In this document: positions 30,566-49,994 of the stretch, in pieces
Layout: every line of letters begins with the position of its first letter
Numbering within the stretch: the stretch's first letter is position 1
Assembly: GCF_003815775.1 (NCBI RefSeq)
Contig: NZ_CP033926.1
Location: 1,736,001 to 1,800,000 of the forward strand
Direction: 5' to 3'
Origin: Chryseobacterium joostei
Lineage (GTDB): Bacteria > Bacteroidota > Bacteroidia > Flavobacteriales > Weeksellaceae
Length of the DNA stretch: 64,000 nt
Position numbers and translations under genes: made by a program
The notes under the pieces: generated by a model
The model's database searches: none
Told to the model about the DNA's origin: nothing
The model's input: only the letters and a program-made list of their open reading frames with translations

Positions 30566-32335
30566 TTAGTACATCTTCTCTATAATATCTGCATATTTTT
30601 TAAGAACCACATTTCTCTTTACTTTCAATGTAGGGGTAATTTCTCCTGTATTGATGTCAAACTCTGCCGGCATTAAGGTAAACTTTTTCACTTTCTCATA
30701 GTCGGCAAGGTGATCTTGTAATTCCTTAAGTTTTTCTTTATAAAGGCTTATTACCTTATCATTTTTTACAGCATCCTCCCAATTGGTGAAAGGGATATTA
30801 TTCTTTTTAATATAGTCCTGTAGAAATTCAAAGTTAGGAACGATTAGCGCTGAAACAAACTGTCTTCCCTCAGCCACCAGCATGATCTGCTGAATGAAAT
30901 TATTATTGGTGAGAAGATTTTCAATTTGCTGCGGAGCAATATACTTTCCATTGGAAGTCTTCATCAGGTCTTTAATTCTGTCTGTAATGATCAGGTTACC
31001 TTTATCATCAAACTTACCTGCATCTCCGGTTTTAAACCAGCCGTCTTCTGTAAATACTTTCTCAGTTTCTTCAGGTCTGTTGTAGTACCCTTTCATGATT
31101 CCGTTTCCTCTTGCCTGGATCTCATCGCTTTCACCGATACGGATTTCTACGCCTGGTAATGGTTTCCCGCTGGTAGCATGTTCAAAGTGAGTCAAAGGGA
31201 AAAGAGTTAAAGTCGCTGTAGTTTCAGTCAACCCATATCCTACCGTCACATGAATGCCCACAGATTCAAAGAATCGGGTTACTTCAGGGGATAAAGAAGC
31301 TCCTCCACATGGTAAAAACCATAGTCTGCCCCCCATTTTATCTTTAATCTTACTGAAGACCAACATATCTGCAACAGATTCCTTTAATTTTAACCCAAAA
31401 GGAACTGATCTTTCATTTCTTCTTAATTCTGCGGTTTCCCATCCGGTTTTTAAGGCCCAATCAAAGATTTTTTTCTTTAATGATGAACCCTCTTCTGCCT
31501 TTTCAAGAACTCCGGCATATACTTTCTGGAAAAATCTTGGTACCGCACACATGGTAGTGGGTTTTACTTCTTCCAATGCCTTTGCTATATTTTTCGGATC
31601 TTCGAGGAAATATACCCTTGCCCCTCCGTATAAACATAGTAAGCTCCAGCTTCTTTCAAAGACATGGCTTAATGGTAAAAAGGCTAATGAAAGCTCATCT
31701 TCAAAGTTTTTAAACTTAAAAAACTCAAAGTGAGAGTCGAATGCCTTGATGAAATTTCCATGGGTAAGCATCACTCCTTTTGGAATTCCCGTTGTTCCTG
31801 AAGTATAGATTAACGTTGCCGTGTCATCATTTTCTTTTTTACAGATCTCTAGCTCAGCAGAAGCTTTTGCGATAAAATCCTCAAGATAGAAGCTGTTGAA
31901 TTCTTTCTTAATCCACACTGCTTTTTTGGAAACAATGATGGTCTCAAGATGGTTCTCTTCTTTATGTAAAATATCCAGACAGGCATCATATTGCATCTGG
32001 TTTCCTACCAGAATCGCTTTAGCCCCGGAATCATTAATGATATATTCTGCCTGTTCAGCATTATTGGTAGAATAAATAGGAACAGTAATCGCTCCAATAG
32101 CCATTGCAGCCAGATCAACGATCATCCATTCTGAGGAATTGTCTGAATAAATAGCAACTTTATCATTTTCCTGAACCCCAGCTTCTTTCAATGCATTACC
32201 CATTTTAAAGATAATTTCACCGAATCTTTTCCAGCTTAGCTCTTTCCAGGCTTCATCTTTCTTTTTAAAGCCAATTGCAGCTTTTATAGGATGTTTTTCT
32301 ACATTTTTAAGGATAATTGCCTCTGCAAGATTCAT
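30566..32335 (-). CDS. Long-chain fatty acid--CoA ligase (AMP-binding)
   Basis: A 589-residue ANL-superfamily enzyme with the AMP-binding loop YTSGTTGIPKGVMLTHGN (about residues 178-195), the VGYGLTETTATLTLF block, the hinge region DGWFKTGDAGKFDDKGNL and ITDRIKDLMKTSNGKYIAPQ. It activates fatty acids to acyl-CoA via acyl-AMP, feeding beta-oxidation or lipid synthesis; it is of the FadD15/long-chain type. Its start overlaps the end of the epimerase gene by four bases, so the two are translationally coupled. Confidence 0.92.
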   Translation of the reverse strand: MNLAEAIILKNVEKHPIKAAIGFKKKDEAWKELSWKRFGEIIFKMGNALKEAGVQENDKVAIYSDNSSEWMIVDLAAMAIGAITVPIYSTNNAEQAEYIINDSGAKAILVGNQMQYDACLDILHKEENHLETIIVSKKAVWIKKEFNSFYLEDFIAKASAELEICKKENDDTATLIYTSGTTGIPKGVMLTHGNFIKAFDSHFEFFKFKNFEDELSLAFLPLSHVFERSWSLLCLYGGARVYFLEDPKNIAKALEEVKPTTMCAVPRFFQKVYAGVLEKAEEGSSLKKKIFDWALKTGWETAELRRNERSVPFGLKLKESVADMLVFSKIKDKMGGRLWFLPCGGASLSPEVTRFFESVGIHVTVGYGLTETTATLTLFPLTHFEHATSGKPLPGVEIRIGESDEIQARGNGIMKGYYNRPEETEKVFTEDGWFKTGDAGKFDDKGNLIITDRIKDLMKTSNGKYIAPQQIENLLTNNNFIQQIMLVAEGRQFVSALIVPNFEFLQDYIKKNNIPFTNWEDAVKNDKVISLYKEKLKELQDHLADYEKVKKFTLMPAEFDINTGEITPTLKVKRNVVLKKYADIIEKMY

Positions 32336-33345
32336 TTCTTCAGCTTTTTGTCGTTAATATAATTGTTCAGGTGAAAGTCTATACTTTCTTTTACAGGAAT
32401 AAACTCATAGTTCAGTTTTTCCCTGACTTTGTGATTGGAAATGGTGTTGAATGAAGAGATGGCCTCAATATTTGATTCTGTGGCCATTCTCAGTTTTGGA
32501 ATCAGCCATCCGAATAATGTATTGGCTAATTTTCCGATATTCAGTTGGGATCTTGTAAGGATTCTTGCCTCTTTAAGACCTAATCGGGTTCTGACCTGTT
32601 TTGCCAGATCGGCATATTTATTATTTTCAGCAACAATGATAAATCGTTCCCCGAAAATGTTATTATCCATCAGTTCAATGGCTGTTTTTGCAACATCTCT
32701 TACATCTACGTAAGCAGAGCCGCCTGCAAATGTAAAACTATTGTCTTCAAATGTTGAGAAAAGCTCACCACTACTTTGGCTCCAGTTTCCGCTTCCCACA
32801 ATCATTCCCGGATTGATGATAACAACATTCAATCCTTCTGCAGATGCTCTCCAGGCTTCCATTTCAGATAAATGCTTGGATATGGCATAGGCAGAATGCT
32901 CTAATTTTGGGTTAAAATCAGATTCTTCATCCAGTTCTCCCTTTTCATTAAAGCTATCTAACACTGCCACAGAACTTACGTGCAGGAATTTTTTAACTTC
33001 GGAACCCTCACAGGCAAACAATAGGTTTTCTGTACCTTTAATATTGGTATGGTACATTTCTTTCTCATCTTTGGGATGAAAGCTTACCTTTGCGGCACAG
33101 TGATAGACTTCATTCACACCTTTCAGAGCATCTGTCAAAGAGTCGATATCATCAAAATCGACATTTACCCATTCAATTTTATTGAAAAAATCGTCAGGAT
33201 TCTCTGTATAAAAGCTGTATGAATGCCTTACTTCGTTTAAATTGCTGCCAGGTCTCTTGGAAGCACGTACATTTTTACCTCTTTTTAGAAGTTCCAGCAC
33301 AATTATTCTTCCCAAAATTCCGGTTGCACCCGTTACAAAAACCAT
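32332..33345 (-). CDS. NAD-dependent epimerase/dehydratase family protein
   Basis: A 337-residue extended short-chain dehydrogenase with the Rossmann loop FVTGATGILGRIIV (residues 3-16), HVSSVAVLD and the catalytic YAISKHLSE (YxxxK). Similar to dihydroflavonol-4-reductase-like proteins of Bacteroidetes. Substrate unknown; coupling to a long-chain acyl-CoA ligase hints at a lipid-related role. A promoter lies 24 bases upstream. Confidence 0.88.
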   Translation of the reverse strand: MVFVTGATGILGRIIVLELLKRGKNVRASKRPGSNLNEVRHSYSFYTENPDDFFNKIEWVNVDFDDIDSLTDALKGVNEVYHCAAKVSFHPKDEKEMYHTNIKGTENLLFACEGSEVKKFLHVSSVAVLDSFNEKGELDEESDFNPKLEHSAYAISKHLSEMEAWRASAEGLNVVIINPGMIVGSGNWSQSSGELFSTFEDNSFTFAGGSAYVDVRDVAKTAIELMDNNIFGERFIIVAENNKYADLAKQVRTRLGLKEARILTRSQLNIGKLANTLFGWLIPKLRMATESNIEAISSFNTISNHKVREKLNYEFIPVKESIDFHLNNYINDKKLKK

Positions 33346-33619: not shown

Positions 33620-34624
33620 TTATGCTAAAACTACATTATTTCTTCTTGGAGCCTTATCACAAAGAACATCTGCAATGCTTCTGGAAATCATATTTCCTTC
33701 CGTAAGATTATCCAGCCAGAAAAACTCACCTGCGGCATTGATCTCAATAAAGTAATATTGATCTTCAGGAGAAACAATAATATCTATTGCACCATAGTCT
33801 ACATTATAAATATCCAGCAGCTCCAGCAGTTTCTCTTCAACATCCTTCGGAAGTTCTGTTTTTGTCCATTTATCAAGTAAATTAACACCATCCTTTCTCC
33901 AATCTACCTTTGCGTCTTCAAATTGTTGCGAATCCACTTCAAAAGCATAGACATCTCTTCCTACAATGGTAACACGAAGCTCTCTTTTCTTTTCGATCAT
34001 CTGCTGAAACTGCATCGGGCAGTACAACAGAGAATCCAGCTCTTCAAACTTATCTTCTTTTACCACATTAGTAAAAACCACATTTTCTACTCCGTCTTCG
34101 TAAATAGCAAAACCCGTTTGCATTTTAGCAACAACATTCTGATGTTTAAGAATAAATTTCTTTGCTTCTTCCGGATTGTTTGTAAGACAGGTTTCCGGAA
34201 CTGAAAGACCTATTTTATGAGCTAATTTCAATTGTTCTTCTTTGCTATCCAGTCTTCTGTAAACACTTGGTTTACCTAATGAATAAGCATCAATAGACTC
34301 CAGAAAACCGAACAATGTATTACGAATTTCCCCCATTGCGGCTCCGAAAAACTTAGTATCCATCTCTTCTTTCAAACCTTTTCCTATATTGTAGGCTCTT
34401 CGGTACCATACTGCTGAAATATCATCCAGACGATACTTGGCAGATGGTGTTTCAAGAATACTTATCCATTCTCCATCCTGAAAAATGGTTGACAGTTTAT
34501 TTTCTAAGGGATATAAATCAACATCAAAGCGAATGACTTCACAGTTATTATCTGCAACGTATTCTGTTACTTTTTCAATTGAAAAATTATCTGCGGTATG
34601 TGTTATAATTAAAATTTTATTCAT
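33620..34624 (-). CDS. mvdD: MvdD-like ATP-grasp graspetide ligase
   Basis: From the ATG at 34624 (MNKILIITHT) the product has 334 residues; an ATG 33 bases upstream lies inside the preceding gene. It belongs to the RimK-like ATP-grasp enzymes that modify microviridin-type peptides: a divergent N-terminal domain with AVWYRRAYNIG, then KPSVYRRLDSKEEQLKLAHKIG, the central YCPMQFQQMIEKKRELRVTIV and the Mg-binding YYFIEINAAGEFFWLD. The MvdD/MdnC type joins Thr and Ser hydroxyls to Asp/Glu side chains as omega-esters. It overlaps the MvdC-like gene by 8 bases. The assignment to MvdD versus MvdC is by overall resemblance. Confidence 0.9.
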   Translation of the reverse strand: MNKILIITHTADNFSIEKVTEYVADNNCEVIRFDVDLYPLENKLSTIFQDGEWISILETPSAKYRLDDISAVWYRRAYNIGKGLKEEMDTKFFGAAMGEIRNTLFGFLESIDAYSLGKPSVYRRLDSKEEQLKLAHKIGLSVPETCLTNNPEEAKKFILKHQNVVAKMQTGFAIYEDGVENVVFTNVVKEDKFEELDSLLYCPMQFQQMIEKKRELRVTIVGRDVYAFEVDSQQFEDAKVDWRKDGVNLLDKWTKTELPKDVEEKLLELLDIYNVDYGAIDIIVSPEDQYYFIEINAAGEFFWLDNLTEGNMISRSIADVLCDKAPRRNNVVLA

Positions 34625-35573
34625 GGAAATTAATTCTTTTGATAAGGTTATCGGCAATTCTTTCTGCTATGGGAAAGCCTAGTTCTTTTTGCAGCATTCC
34701 CCATTCTCCCTGCGGATTGACTTCAAGAAAATAATATTCTCCGTCTTTTCCTTTTATTACATCAATGGCTCCCATATAAAGCCCCATTTCCTTCATCATG
34801 GAAGTCAAATTTATTTTGATATTTTCAGGTAGCTCATAGGCAGACCAGAAGTAGTTTTCATTGCTTATTCTCCAGTCTGCATTGCTACTGTTATTGATCT
34901 TACCTGTAAAGAAAACTCCGTCTACATACATGATTCGCAATTCATATTCTTTATCAATGTAAGGCTGGAAGATCATTGGACAGTAGGCAATATCAGAAAG
35001 ATATTCCAGGGTTTCTTCCTCAATAATCATGGTAGAAATAAGGTTTTCACCACTCATGGTTTTGGATTGTACACCATGCAGTTTGGCAATTGCTTTTCCT
35101 GAACAATATTGATGAAAAAATGTGGTTATTTTCTCTTCATCATTAGAAAACATAGTTTTGGGAATGGTCAGGTGATTTCTTTGGGCAATTTTAAGCTGAA
35201 GCATCTTGTTTCCATCAATTTTCTTTTCTTTTTCAAAGGGATTGATCCAAGGAATATCTTCAAGGGAAGTGAACAAATTATAACGAAGACTTCCATATTC
35301 GATCTGAAAGATCTTCTCGTAGTTCTCATCCAGTTCTTCCGGAACACTTATCCGCCATGCTTTTCTGTGCCATACTCCTTTAATATCATCAGAATGGATG
35401 GTATTTCCGGACTCATCAGTAATTTCAAATGAGTTTTCATTGATGCTGATTTTCTGAAGATGATTAAGCTGATCGGAATTCAACCTAAAATAAGGAATAT
35501 TTTTAGAAGAAAGATATTGAAAGAAAAGATCAATAGTATAAAAATCCTGCGAGTGGGTGATACAGAGAATCAT
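34617..35573 (-). CDS. mvdC: MvdC-like ATP-grasp graspetide ligase
   Basis: This 318-residue ATP-grasp protein is a paralogue of the next gene: GVWHRKAWRIS near residue 67, KKIDGNKMLQLKIAQRNHLTIPKT, YCPMIFQPYIDKEYELRIMYV and the Mg-binding YYFLEVNPQGEWGMLQKELG. In microviridin pathways the MvdC/MdnB enzyme closes the last ring, an amide between the core lysine and an acidic side chain, after MvdD has made the esters. It lies 87 bases downstream of the precursor gene, behind a hairpin, and overlaps mvdD by 8 bases. Confidence 0.9.
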   Translation of the reverse strand: MILCITHSQDFYTIDLFFQYLSSKNIPYFRLNSDQLNHLQKISINENSFEITDESGNTIHSDDIKGVWHRKAWRISVPEELDENYEKIFQIEYGSLRYNLFTSLEDIPWINPFEKEKKIDGNKMLQLKIAQRNHLTIPKTMFSNDEEKITTFFHQYCSGKAIAKLHGVQSKTMSGENLISTMIIEEETLEYLSDIAYCPMIFQPYIDKEYELRIMYVDGVFFTGKINNSSNADWRISNENYFWSAYELPENIKINLTSMMKEMGLYMGAIDVIKGKDGEYYFLEVNPQGEWGMLQKELGFPIAERIADNLIKRINFHE

Positions 35574-35591
35574 TTGCCAGTTTTACTAAAA

Positions 35592-35625
35592 AGGGAAACT
35601 TAAAGTTTAAGTTTCCCTATTATTA
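35592..35625 (-). terminator. Hairpin between precursor and ligase genes (possible attenuator)
   Basis: Read on the minus strand, AGGGAAACTTAAA pairs with TTTAAGTTTCCCT and is followed by TTTTTAG. It fits an intrinsic terminator placed directly after the precursor gene, which could let the peptide be made in excess over the ligases. Confidence 0.75.
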
Positions 35626-35660
35626 CAATTTTGTTAATATGTTACTGTAAAATGATCATT

Positions 35661-35882
35661 TTATAGTAAGATCGCATCATCATCACCATCAGAAGGATAT
35701 TTCATAGTATGCTGCAAATCAGCCTGAGGAGAAGTTACATTGTCTATTGTAGGCTTTGTAATACTGTCTCTTTCAGGAATCGTGATAATATCCGTTCCTC
35801 CTTTTACTGTTTCAGGATCTTTAAGTTGTTTTTCAAGAAATGACGCGAAAAACGGTTTCTTTTTTGAGTTTTTGTTTTCCAT
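35661..35882 (-). CDS. Microviridin-type graspetide precursor peptide
   Basis: The ATG at 35882 gives 73 residues; an upstream in-frame start adds a hydrophobic stretch foreign to the family. Residues 9-20 (KPFFASFLEKQL) match the PFFARFLExQ leader helix that the ATP-grasp ligases recognise. The core near the C-terminus, T59-M-K-Y-P-S-D65 followed by G-D-D-D, has the TxKYPSD motif with the Thr, Ser and Lys that form the two esters and one amide. Unlike classical cores no Trp follows the first Asp and all acceptors are Asp; four residues (AILL) trail. The product is expected to inhibit serine proteases, as microviridins do; this is inference. Confidence 0.9.
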   Translation of the reverse strand: MENKNSKKKPFFASFLEKQLKDPETVKGGTDIITIPERDSITKPTIDNVTSPQADLQHTMKYPSDGDDDAILL

Positions 35883-35998: not shown

Positions 35999-36778
35999 TT
36001 AGCTTAATCCCAGAAATTGCTTAACTACATTAGCAAAATCTACAGGATTTTCAGCCTGCACCCAATGTCCTGCATTTTTCACAGTAACAATTTTAGCCTT
36101 TGGAAACTGCTGCTTTATCCCATATTCGTCCTGTGGAAGGATATAGTTGGATTTCTCTCCGGCAATAAATAAGGCTTCACCATCAAAGATTCCGAATTTC
36201 ACAGCGTTGGAAACAAATTCATTATACTTTTCGGATAGTGTTTTAAGGTTAAACCTCCAGTTCAGCTTTTTATTATCATCCCAATACAGGTTTTTTGTTA
36301 AAAACTGGATCGTTGATTTTTCAGGAATGTACTGGCTTAAAATAGCTTCCACATCATTTCTGGAACCCACGGTATTAAAGTCAACACTTTCCAAAGCCTT
36401 GATTACTCCTTGATGATGTGGTGGATAAGCTTTTGGAGAAATATCCACTACAATCAGCTTTTCAACTCTTTCAGGATATTTTATGGCAAACTGCATTACC
36501 GCTTTTCCACCTAAAGAATGTCCCAAAACATGTGCTTTTTGAATTCCGTAATGATCCATATAACGGGCAATATCATCCGCCAGATCATCATGGGACATAT
36601 CATCTGAATGAAAACTTCTTCCGTGGTTTCTAAGATCAATCAGATGTACCGGAAGATATTCTCCAAGATCTTTTCCGAAACTTCCCCAGTTGTCAAGCAT
36701 CCCGAACAATCCGTGGAATACCAAAAGCGGTGTAGCCGTTGAAGCCTCACCAAATATTTTTGAGTTTAAGATTTCCAT
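35999..36778 (-). CDS. Alpha/beta hydrolase (YbfF-like esterase)
   Basis: A 259-residue alpha/beta hydrolase with the oxyanion-hole segment LLVFHGLFGMLDNWG, the nucleophile elbow GHSLGGKA (Ser about residue 87) and the C-terminal GHWVQAENP histidine. It resembles YbfF-type acyl-CoA or short-chain esterases. It precedes the graspetide precursor on the same strand with a 116-base gap that contains a promoter-like box, so it need not belong to that cluster. Confidence 0.85.
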   Translation of the reverse strand: MEILNSKIFGEASTATPLLVFHGLFGMLDNWGSFGKDLGEYLPVHLIDLRNHGRSFHSDDMSHDDLADDIARYMDHYGIQKAHVLGHSLGGKAVMQFAIKYPERVEKLIVVDISPKAYPPHHQGVIKALESVDFNTVGSRNDVEAILSQYIPEKSTIQFLTKNLYWDDNKKLNWRFNLKTLSEKYNEFVSNAVKFGIFDGEALFIAGEKSNYILPQDEYGIKQQFPKAKIVTVKNAGHWVQAENPVDFANVVKQFLGLS

Positions 36779-47428: not shown

Positions 47429-47612
47429 GTTTAACGCTTATTCATCACAGAAACTGGTTCTGCCTAACCGCAGATTAAAAGGGAACCGTGTGAAAATCAC
47501 GGACTGTCGCGCAACTGTAAGTAACTGAAATCTTTATCAAAAGATCCACTGTGCGAGGCATGGGAAGGAGATAAAAGATGTTACAAGTCAGGAGACCTGC
47601 CTTTTCTTAAAC
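47429..47612 (+). promoter_or_regulatory. Cobalamin (B12) riboswitch
   Basis: All conserved blocks of the cobalamin aptamer are present in order: AAAAGGGAA (47477-47485), a helix with CCGTG / CACGG, the B12 box GACTGTCGCGCAACTGTAA with CACTG, GGCATGGGAAGG and AGTCAGGAGACCTGCC (47587-47602). An outer helix can form between GTTTAA (47429-47434) and TTAAAC (47607-47612). Such RNAs repress the downstream gene when adenosyl- or methylcobalamin binds. The next gene on the strand is an acyl-CoA thioesterase, 121 bases further on, not a transport or B12 gene. Confidence 0.93.
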
Positions 47613-47658
47613 AAGAAACTTTCGCGATCTGAAGTTTTATTGATCTGATGGATTGTTT

Positions 47659-49635: not shown

Positions 49636-49721
49636 AGAAGCTGTTCCCGCTATCCGCTCATACTCCTCGCACCACTCCAAAACCCCAATATGCTGCGGGG
49701 TAACCGCTACTATCGGGGCTA
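49636..49721. repeat. Degenerate intergenic repeat, copy B
   Basis: The GC-rich partner of the repeat at 17643-17747, sharing TATCCGCTCATACTCCTC and the CTGCGGGGTAACCGCTACTA part. It lies in a 600-base gene-free stretch (49509-50105) whose remainder is A/T-rich and holds only the two flanking promoters. Short frames running through the repeat look accidental. Confidence 0.6.
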
Positions 49722-49994
49722 TGAAGTCTCATTATAAGCAATGTTGCCATTGGGTATCAATCAATTTGATCAGGATTGCAAAATACCGGCTGTCATAAAA
49801 TCCTTGATGTTTCAATCCTATTTAAAGTAAAACAAATATTATCTCATTACATTTCTCTATCTAAAGCACTCAATTTTTAAGGTTAAAATCAATTATTTTG
49901 CCTTTAATAAGAATTCCTTAAAATCTGCAATAAAATTATAATGCTGATTATCAATTAGTTAAACTATTTATTTTAAAAATTTCACTACTTTGTA

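Follow-up and report, generated by a model that had tools for sequence, protein, structure and literature searches.

By its gene content, the window (the whole stretch of Chryseobacterium joostei DNA analyzed here, 64,000 nucleotides) contains a chryseoviridin (cdn) locus with one precursor, in which all genes lie on the minus strand in the order precursor, MvdC-like ligase, MvdD-like ligase (33620-35882; Table 1). Its product is predicted to carry three single ester rings in addition to a microviridin-like core, about twice as many rings as an earlier, sequence-only reading had proposed, and a hairpin between precursor and ligases is a putative attenuator. This reading as a whole (a cdn locus, one precursor, six links, and an attenuating hairpin) is given a probability of about 0.88. 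The cluster is typical of the genus, and its kind is already known and common in Chryseobacterium; the conserved hairpin, together with its persistence where the cluster is absent, is the only unexpected part of the finding.

Table 1. Features of the locus in window positions; conservation counts are from the best 120 of 220 precursor relatives.
Feature	Position	Strand	Remarks
Flanking epimerase-like gene	32332..33345	-	best NCBIfam match HpnA, under the HpnA cut-off
cdnC, MvdD-like ATP-grasp ligase	33620..34624	-	334 aa; proposed ester former
cdnB, MvdC-like ATP-grasp ligase	34617..35573	-	318 aa; proposed amide former
Terminator/attenuator-like hairpin, GGAAACTTA-loop-TAAGTTTCC	35594..35616	-	T run at 35588-35592
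cdnA-type graspetide precursor, single copy	35661..35882	-	73 aa, ATG start
Microviridin-like core TMKYPSDGDDD, T59-D69	35676..35708	-	predicted T59-D65 and S64-D67 esters, K61-D68 amide
Ring unit 3 TSPQAD, T50-D55	35718..35735	-	predicted single omega-ester
Ring unit 2 TKPTID, T42-D47	35742..35759	-	predicted single omega-ester
Ring unit 1 TIPERD, T34-D39	35766..35783	-	predicted single omega-ester
GG motif, residues 28-29	35796..35801	-	proposed leader cleavage site; G28, G29 identical 120/120
Putative leader recognition helix PFFASFLEKQ, residues 10-19	35826..35855	-	F11, F12, L16, E17, Q19 identical
Flanking alpha/beta hydrolase	35999..36778	-	no biosynthetic part as far as shown

Gene content and family assignment

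The sequence-only reading had placed the locus among graspetide clusters of the microviridin/chryseoviridin kind, and family matches to all three genes agree with it. The precursor reaches the curated scores of both NF033738 (microviridin/marinostatin; 72.3 bits, cut-off 26) and PF12559 (Inhibitor_I10; 33.5 bits, cut-off 21). The two genes that follow it encode, as had been claimed, different RimK-like ATP-grasp ligases on the same strand (the minus strand, which that reading did not specify), with cdnB directly before cdnC and an overlap of 8 bases (34617-34624). The best family of cdnB is MvdC (TIGR04185), at 416.8 bits just below the cut-off of 425, and that of cdnC is MvdD (TIGR04184), at 481.6 bits with a cut-off of 475. 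Among solved structures, cdnB matches AMdnB (7m4s, E 1.9e-56) and 5ig8 (E 1e-50), and cdnC matches CdnC (7mgv, E 3.2e-185) ahead of 5ig9 (E 8.1e-69); 5ig8 and 5ig9 are MdnB and MdnC, respectively, according to the available text of PMC10452190.

At E <= 1, PF12559 has one match in the whole genome, which is the window precursor. This search gave no second precursor elsewhere in the genome, and a divergent copy could escape it, because Pfam also missed both precursors of another genome of the genus (G088). In comparisons with seven relatives, in many of which dS is near or above 1, dN/dS of the three cdn genes is 0.03-0.19 (cdnA, 0.05-0.19); relative to the nearest of them, Chryseobacterium aurantiacum F30 (dS 0.25-0.52), it is 0.04-0.05. 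The family matches, the single genomic match and these dN/dS values together indicate that the precursor is no chance open reading frame.

According to the available text of PMC8939145, Chryseobacterium cdn loci comprise CdnB, CdnC, and several precursors, flanked by an alpha/beta hydrolase and an epimerase, and the precursors, which share the motif TxxxxDxxxTxKxPSDxD[DE], carry one to three additional links in their variable part. Both flanks are present at the window locus, and so is the motif (T50-D55, LQH, T59.K61.PSD65.D67.D68), preceded by two more TxxxxD. A search of 32 genomes, including 29 that lack the cluster, found the hydrolase in every one, and the epimerase was likewise found in 32/32. 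Among named relatives, C. aurantiacum F30 is the nearest (CdnC 96% and precursor 97% identical). Counted in favor of the cdn reading were (i) the three family matches, (ii) the match to 7mgv, (iii) the flanks, (iv) the Thr-to-Asp spacing and the co-occurrence of precursor and ligase described below, and (v) dN/dS. Counted against it were the score of CdnB below the curated MvdC cut-off, a scan of five flanking genes that found neither a protease nor a peptide exporter, and a lactam acceptor that is Asp here and Glu in cyanobacterial microviridins.

Precursor architecture and predicted product

Both marks on which the sequence-only reading relied, the PFFASFLEKQL leader (residues 10-20) and a TMKYPSD core (59-65), are in the precursor, the latter followed by GDDDAILL. 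PFFASFLEKQ is taken to be the leader recognition helix, with a role as in microviridins, and the five residues of it listed in Table 1 are identical in 120/120 relatives. These are the best 120 of 220 relatives found at E <= 1e-3, and since they were found with the window query and are mutually related, the counts made on them here and below are not independent and serve as descriptions, not as probabilities.

The region from GG29 to TMKYPSD reads TDIITIPERDSITKPTIDNVTSPQADLQH, and in it Thr34, Thr42 and Thr50, as well as Asp39, Asp47 and Asp55, are each exactly 8 residues apart. Among the best 120 relatives, position 34 is Thr in 110 and Ser in 9 and D39 is kept in 119; T42 and D47 are kept in 119 and 117, and T50 and D55 in 118 and 120. 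The interiors of the rings vary (for instance, position 45 is Thr in 23, Ala in 21, and Ile in 18 of 120), with a frequent Pro at the third position (88, 95, and 98 of 120). In the core, T59, K61, Y62, P63, S64, D65, and D67 are each found in 120/120, and position 68 is Asp in 107 and Glu in 13. Across the 120 precursors, Thr is followed by Asp at +5 on 357 occasions between GG and core, whereas 500 shuffles average 73 and reach at most 96. None of the other spacings from 1 to 12 exceeds its own shuffled maximum, +7 (68) and +12 (63) lying above their shuffled means of 66.7 and 51.6. For the window region alone, the chance of three +5 pairs is 0.006. Three T/S-x4-D/E units precede the core in 106 of the 120 precursors, four in 10, and two in 4.

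The original chryseoviridin paper, by its title, reportedly deals with omega-ester macrocycles, both single and bicyclic, of a multicore product. If the window peptide were instead a plain microviridin, only TMKYPSDGDDD would be cyclized, with the loss of three waters, and the region between GG and core would be a linker. The C-terminal core is the most conserved part of the precursor (seven positions at 120/120), and a microviridin has two ester links and one amide link (available text of PMC8939145); a linker, however, would have no need of three Thr-Asp pairs at +5, repeated every 8 residues and held fixed while the interiors vary, and the described family is multicore, both in that text and in the title of the chryseoviridin paper. 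A plain microviridin is thus very unlikely. The sequence-only reading had expected a tricyclic peptide that has lost three waters. The first point is, judged by sequence, not supported in view of three further TxxxxD units with 8-residue spacing, whose Thr and Asp are nearly as conserved as those of the core, and these units, along with the multicore nature of the described system, raise the expected loss to five or six waters.

For the multi-ring product, the leader helix would recruit the ligases, and CdnC would use ATP to activate Asp side chains and join them to Thr or Ser, closing three single six-residue ester rings (T34-D39, T42-D47, T50-D55) and also the bicyclic ester core (T59-D65, S64-D67), while CdnB would close the lactam K61-D68. 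The roles given here to the leader, to CdnC (Asp activation and ester closure), and to CdnB (lactam closure) are those of the family and are assigned by homology, and the pairing within the core is assumed by analogy with microviridins. A protease would cut after GG29, a site inferred because the GG is fully conserved, to release 44 residues with a calculated mass of about 4744.33 Da if all six links form (4852.40 unmodified; 4762.34 without the lactam). This peptide would then be exported and is probably a serine protease inhibitor; Met60 occupies the position that governs specificity in microviridins, and trypsin would be expected to be inhibited less than subtilisin, chymotrypsin, or elastase. 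The revised ring count shifts the expected mass by up to three waters, and a mass search that does not allow for it would miss the product.

Relation to described systems

Like the chryseoviridin system of C. gregarium (CdnA precursors, CdnB, CdnC; 7mgv), the window locus has the order precursor-cdnB-cdnC, the same flanks, and repeated TxxxxD units followed by a microviridin-like core. It differs in having one precursor, as opposed to four at the locus taken as that of C. gregarium (L127), a number also given in the available text of PMC8939145. CdnC and CdnB are 80 and 74% identical to those of L127, and the window precursor finds its best match there in the last precursor (P0088; 67% identical). 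The characterized CdnA3 reportedly has four single rings before its core, and three are predicted for the window precursor.

The cyanobacterial microviridins (MdnA/MvdE, MdnB/MvdC, MdnC/MvdD) likewise have one MvdC-like and one MvdD-like ligase, as well as the PFFA.FLE leader helix and T.KYPSD core that the window precursor shows. In contrast to microviridins sensu stricto, with their single tricyclic core, the window precursor has three more conserved TxxxxD ring units before its core, and the five flanking genes scanned include no acetyltransferase or peptide transporter. Cyanobacterial microviridins also have Glu as the last acceptors, whereas the window core has Asp. The precursor shares the families PF12559 and NF033738 with the marinostatins (Inhibitor I10); marinostatin is a short ester-bridged peptide, as against a predicted multi-ring product of 44 residues.

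No sequence identical to the window precursor is among the best 120 of its 220 relatives. A literature search, with most subscription papers outside its range, recognized no paper on this peptide or on the hairpin. The exact peptide of the window is likely undescribed.

Distribution and precursor number

The cluster is widespread in the genus and, within a sample of the family, was found there alone. PF12559 and CdnC (E <= 1e-40) each match in 143 of 173 genus genomes, and the two sets differ by two genomes: G088, which has CdnC and, found on reading, the two precursors that Pfam missed, and G135 (73% complete), which has a precursor match but none for CdnC. Of 197 genomes sampled evenly across the family, 46 have CdnC, and all 46 belong to this genus (1/33 genera); it was found in none of the other 32 genera sampled. 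A conserved microviridin cluster is reported for all four Chryseobacterium genomes compared in the available text of PMC8151938.

Cluster absence and variation in precursor number are both common in the genus, and one cluster (G016) has a possibly broken cdnC, with an internal TGA in the match; the window locus could accordingly be a decaying one, in which the ligases remain and the precursor no longer matters. Against this, all genes of the window locus are open and under purifying selection, cdnA included, and all predicted cross-link positions carry conserved residues. Decay of the window locus is very unlikely.

In G016 (G016:C1:1041974-1042792), the CdnC match starts at residue 61 and lies beside an open single precursor; this cluster may have lost its ester ligase, or the stop may be a sequencing error. 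One precursor match in a further genome (G029:C1:1386715-1386900) has an internal TAA.

By motif count, precursors per locus range from one to five among the window and 32 named loci and from one to four among 20 further loci, where one of the four precursors of L020 is a short remnant, the second precursor of L022 is cut, and the counts for L022, an assembly with broken frames, are untrustworthy. The one precursor of the sequence-only reading is right for this strain, yet on a tree of the flanking genes it looks derived. Its 81 rows exclude L022, whose frames are fragmented, and L036, which shares its contig with G110; for L119-L126 (eight rows), no epimerase was found in the stretch examined; and the root is unsure because the chosen outgroup is not one clade. 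The window belongs to a starred group of 10 single-precursor rows, itself nested in a starred group of 19, the remaining nine of which carry two precursors. A hand-assigned label of single or multiple precursors, taken from the motif counts for the 52 cluster-bearing rows (18 vs. 34), needs three changes on the tree. The window precursor corresponds to the copy adjoining cdnB, and the simplest reading is that an upstream precursor was probably lost once, in the ancestor of the window's clade.

In L119-L126, whose CdnC is 74-78% identical to that of the window, the epimerase was not found in the stretch examined, nor in L036, which covers more of the same contig as L124; the downstream flank of these loci thus differs or lies further off.

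The window offers a naturally minimal, one-precursor chryseoviridin locus, handy for assigning each ligase to its link. Its related loci, with one fixed site, repeated absence, one to five precursors per locus, and two to four TxxxxD units ahead of the core, amount to a natural experiment in the expansion and contraction of a multi-ring peptide.

A conserved hairpin between precursor and ligases

The hairpin lies between the precursor stop and the cdnB start and is followed by T's. A loose pattern found it in 33/33 loci, only after the last precursor, and in 18 of the 20 further loci (one of these 20, L124, is on the contig already represented by L036); L119 and L125 escaped the pattern, and the hairpin was recognized there on reading the gap, with one arm changed. 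The minimum free energy of the gap is -17.8, compared with -9.4 +/- 2.4 in 300 shuffles (z -3.5). By eye, the arms are nearly fixed, the loop varies, and changes in the arms are mainly one-sided, which makes the hairpin a case of sequence conservation more than of covariation. The exact arms occur at one place in the window's genome, and the idea of a common genomic terminator was rejected on that ground. No known RNA family matches at the hairpin in the window at gathering thresholds, and no convincing promoter was seen by eye in the alignment upstream of cdnA.

The natural reading is that the hairpin is probably a terminator or attenuator favoring precursor over enzyme: it would end most transcripts, leaving more precursor than ligase. 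In the available main text of PMC8939145, "terminator" and "attenuat" do not occur, and "hairpin" does so only in a reference title. The hairpin offers a testable idea for how the amounts of precursor and enzyme are balanced.

Cluster-less sites

Of the 30 genomes without a PF12559 match, all except G088 have the hydrolase and the epimerase as neighbors, about 120-590 bases apart, and 13 of these 29 cluster-less sites (e.g., L060, L063, L067, and L068) keep the hairpin in the gap. The 13 sites form groups of six and seven that are also groups on the flank-gene tree. In both groups, conservation covers an A/T-rich block upstream (a possible promoter) and the hairpin with its neighbor, and the stretch between is not conserved. 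At the hairpin, none of six of the 13 sites matched a known RNA family up to E 1.

A profile (R1) was trained on 30 of these 33 intact loci, omitting L014, L022, and L025, and, because the alignment had shifted the arms, was used as a sequence profile with no base pairs. It matched all 20 further loci (L119-L138, of which L124 repeats the contig of the training row L036), G088 (L088), and all but three (G014, G041, and G162) of the 13 empty sites with a hairpin, hence 10, and had no match at E <= 1 in the other 16. The hairpin is palindromic and several sites matched better on the wrong strand, so the R1 matches owe more to the hairpin than to its neighbor; the A/T-rich neighbor itself is altered in several intact loci (e.g., L010, L013, L016, L018, L019, and L021).

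The hairpin-bearing empty sites are probably scars of lost clusters. They could conversely be ancestral: the hairpin would then have begun as the terminator of the hydrolase transcript, with the cdn genes inserted around it afterward. The unsure rooting of the flank-gene tree leaves room for this order of events, and the A/T-rich block and hairpin are conserved in both clades, which plain decay would not favor. It would, however, require separate arrivals of cdnA and cdnBC, one on each side of a single hairpin; the pattern occurs in 45 of the 50 genomes of the genus (G092 has it away from cdn) and in only 5 of 147 other genomes of the family sample; and cluster-bearing rows branch both outside and inside the hairpin clades, the outer ones being placed by the hydrolase only and by weak forks. 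An ancestral hairpin is therefore a minority possibility, unlikely but to be taken seriously, and scars are the preferred reading. It is improbable that the near-invariant hairpin, with its partly conserved A/T-rich 5' neighbor, forms the 3' terminus of a regulator (a functional small RNA or 3'UTR element) that is carried on the cdnA mRNA and has outlived the peptide genes in two lineages. If true, these lineages would keep an upstream block (maybe a promoter) and a hairpin with no recognizable coding sequence.

Protease and export candidates, and other loci

Class I microviridins of cyanobacteria are reported to have a dedicated protease, NosP (available text of PMC13039773). In the genome of the window, one C39 peptidase-transporter matches at E <= 0.01. 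It belongs to another RiPP locus, of the grasp-with-spasm type, and was rejected as the cdn exporter: C39 occurs with or without cdn, in 169 of 173 genus genomes. The four that lack it (G064, G068, G075, and G107) also lack cdn, a joint absence that says little because the genomes are related. The locus near this only C39 peptidase-ABC transporter (L156; G000:C1:3886000-3898000) is the second ATP-grasp RiPP locus of the genome and holds a grasp-with-spasm ligase (TIGR04192, 355.7 bits) and a SPASM maturase (TIGR04193, 408.6 bits). Elsewhere in the window, two known RNAs were matched: a cobalamin riboswitch (RF00174) on the plus strand at 47438-47618, with 104.7 bits, and a Flavo-1 RNA (RF01705) on the minus strand at 49639-49724, whose 42.4 bits barely exceed the gathering score of 42.
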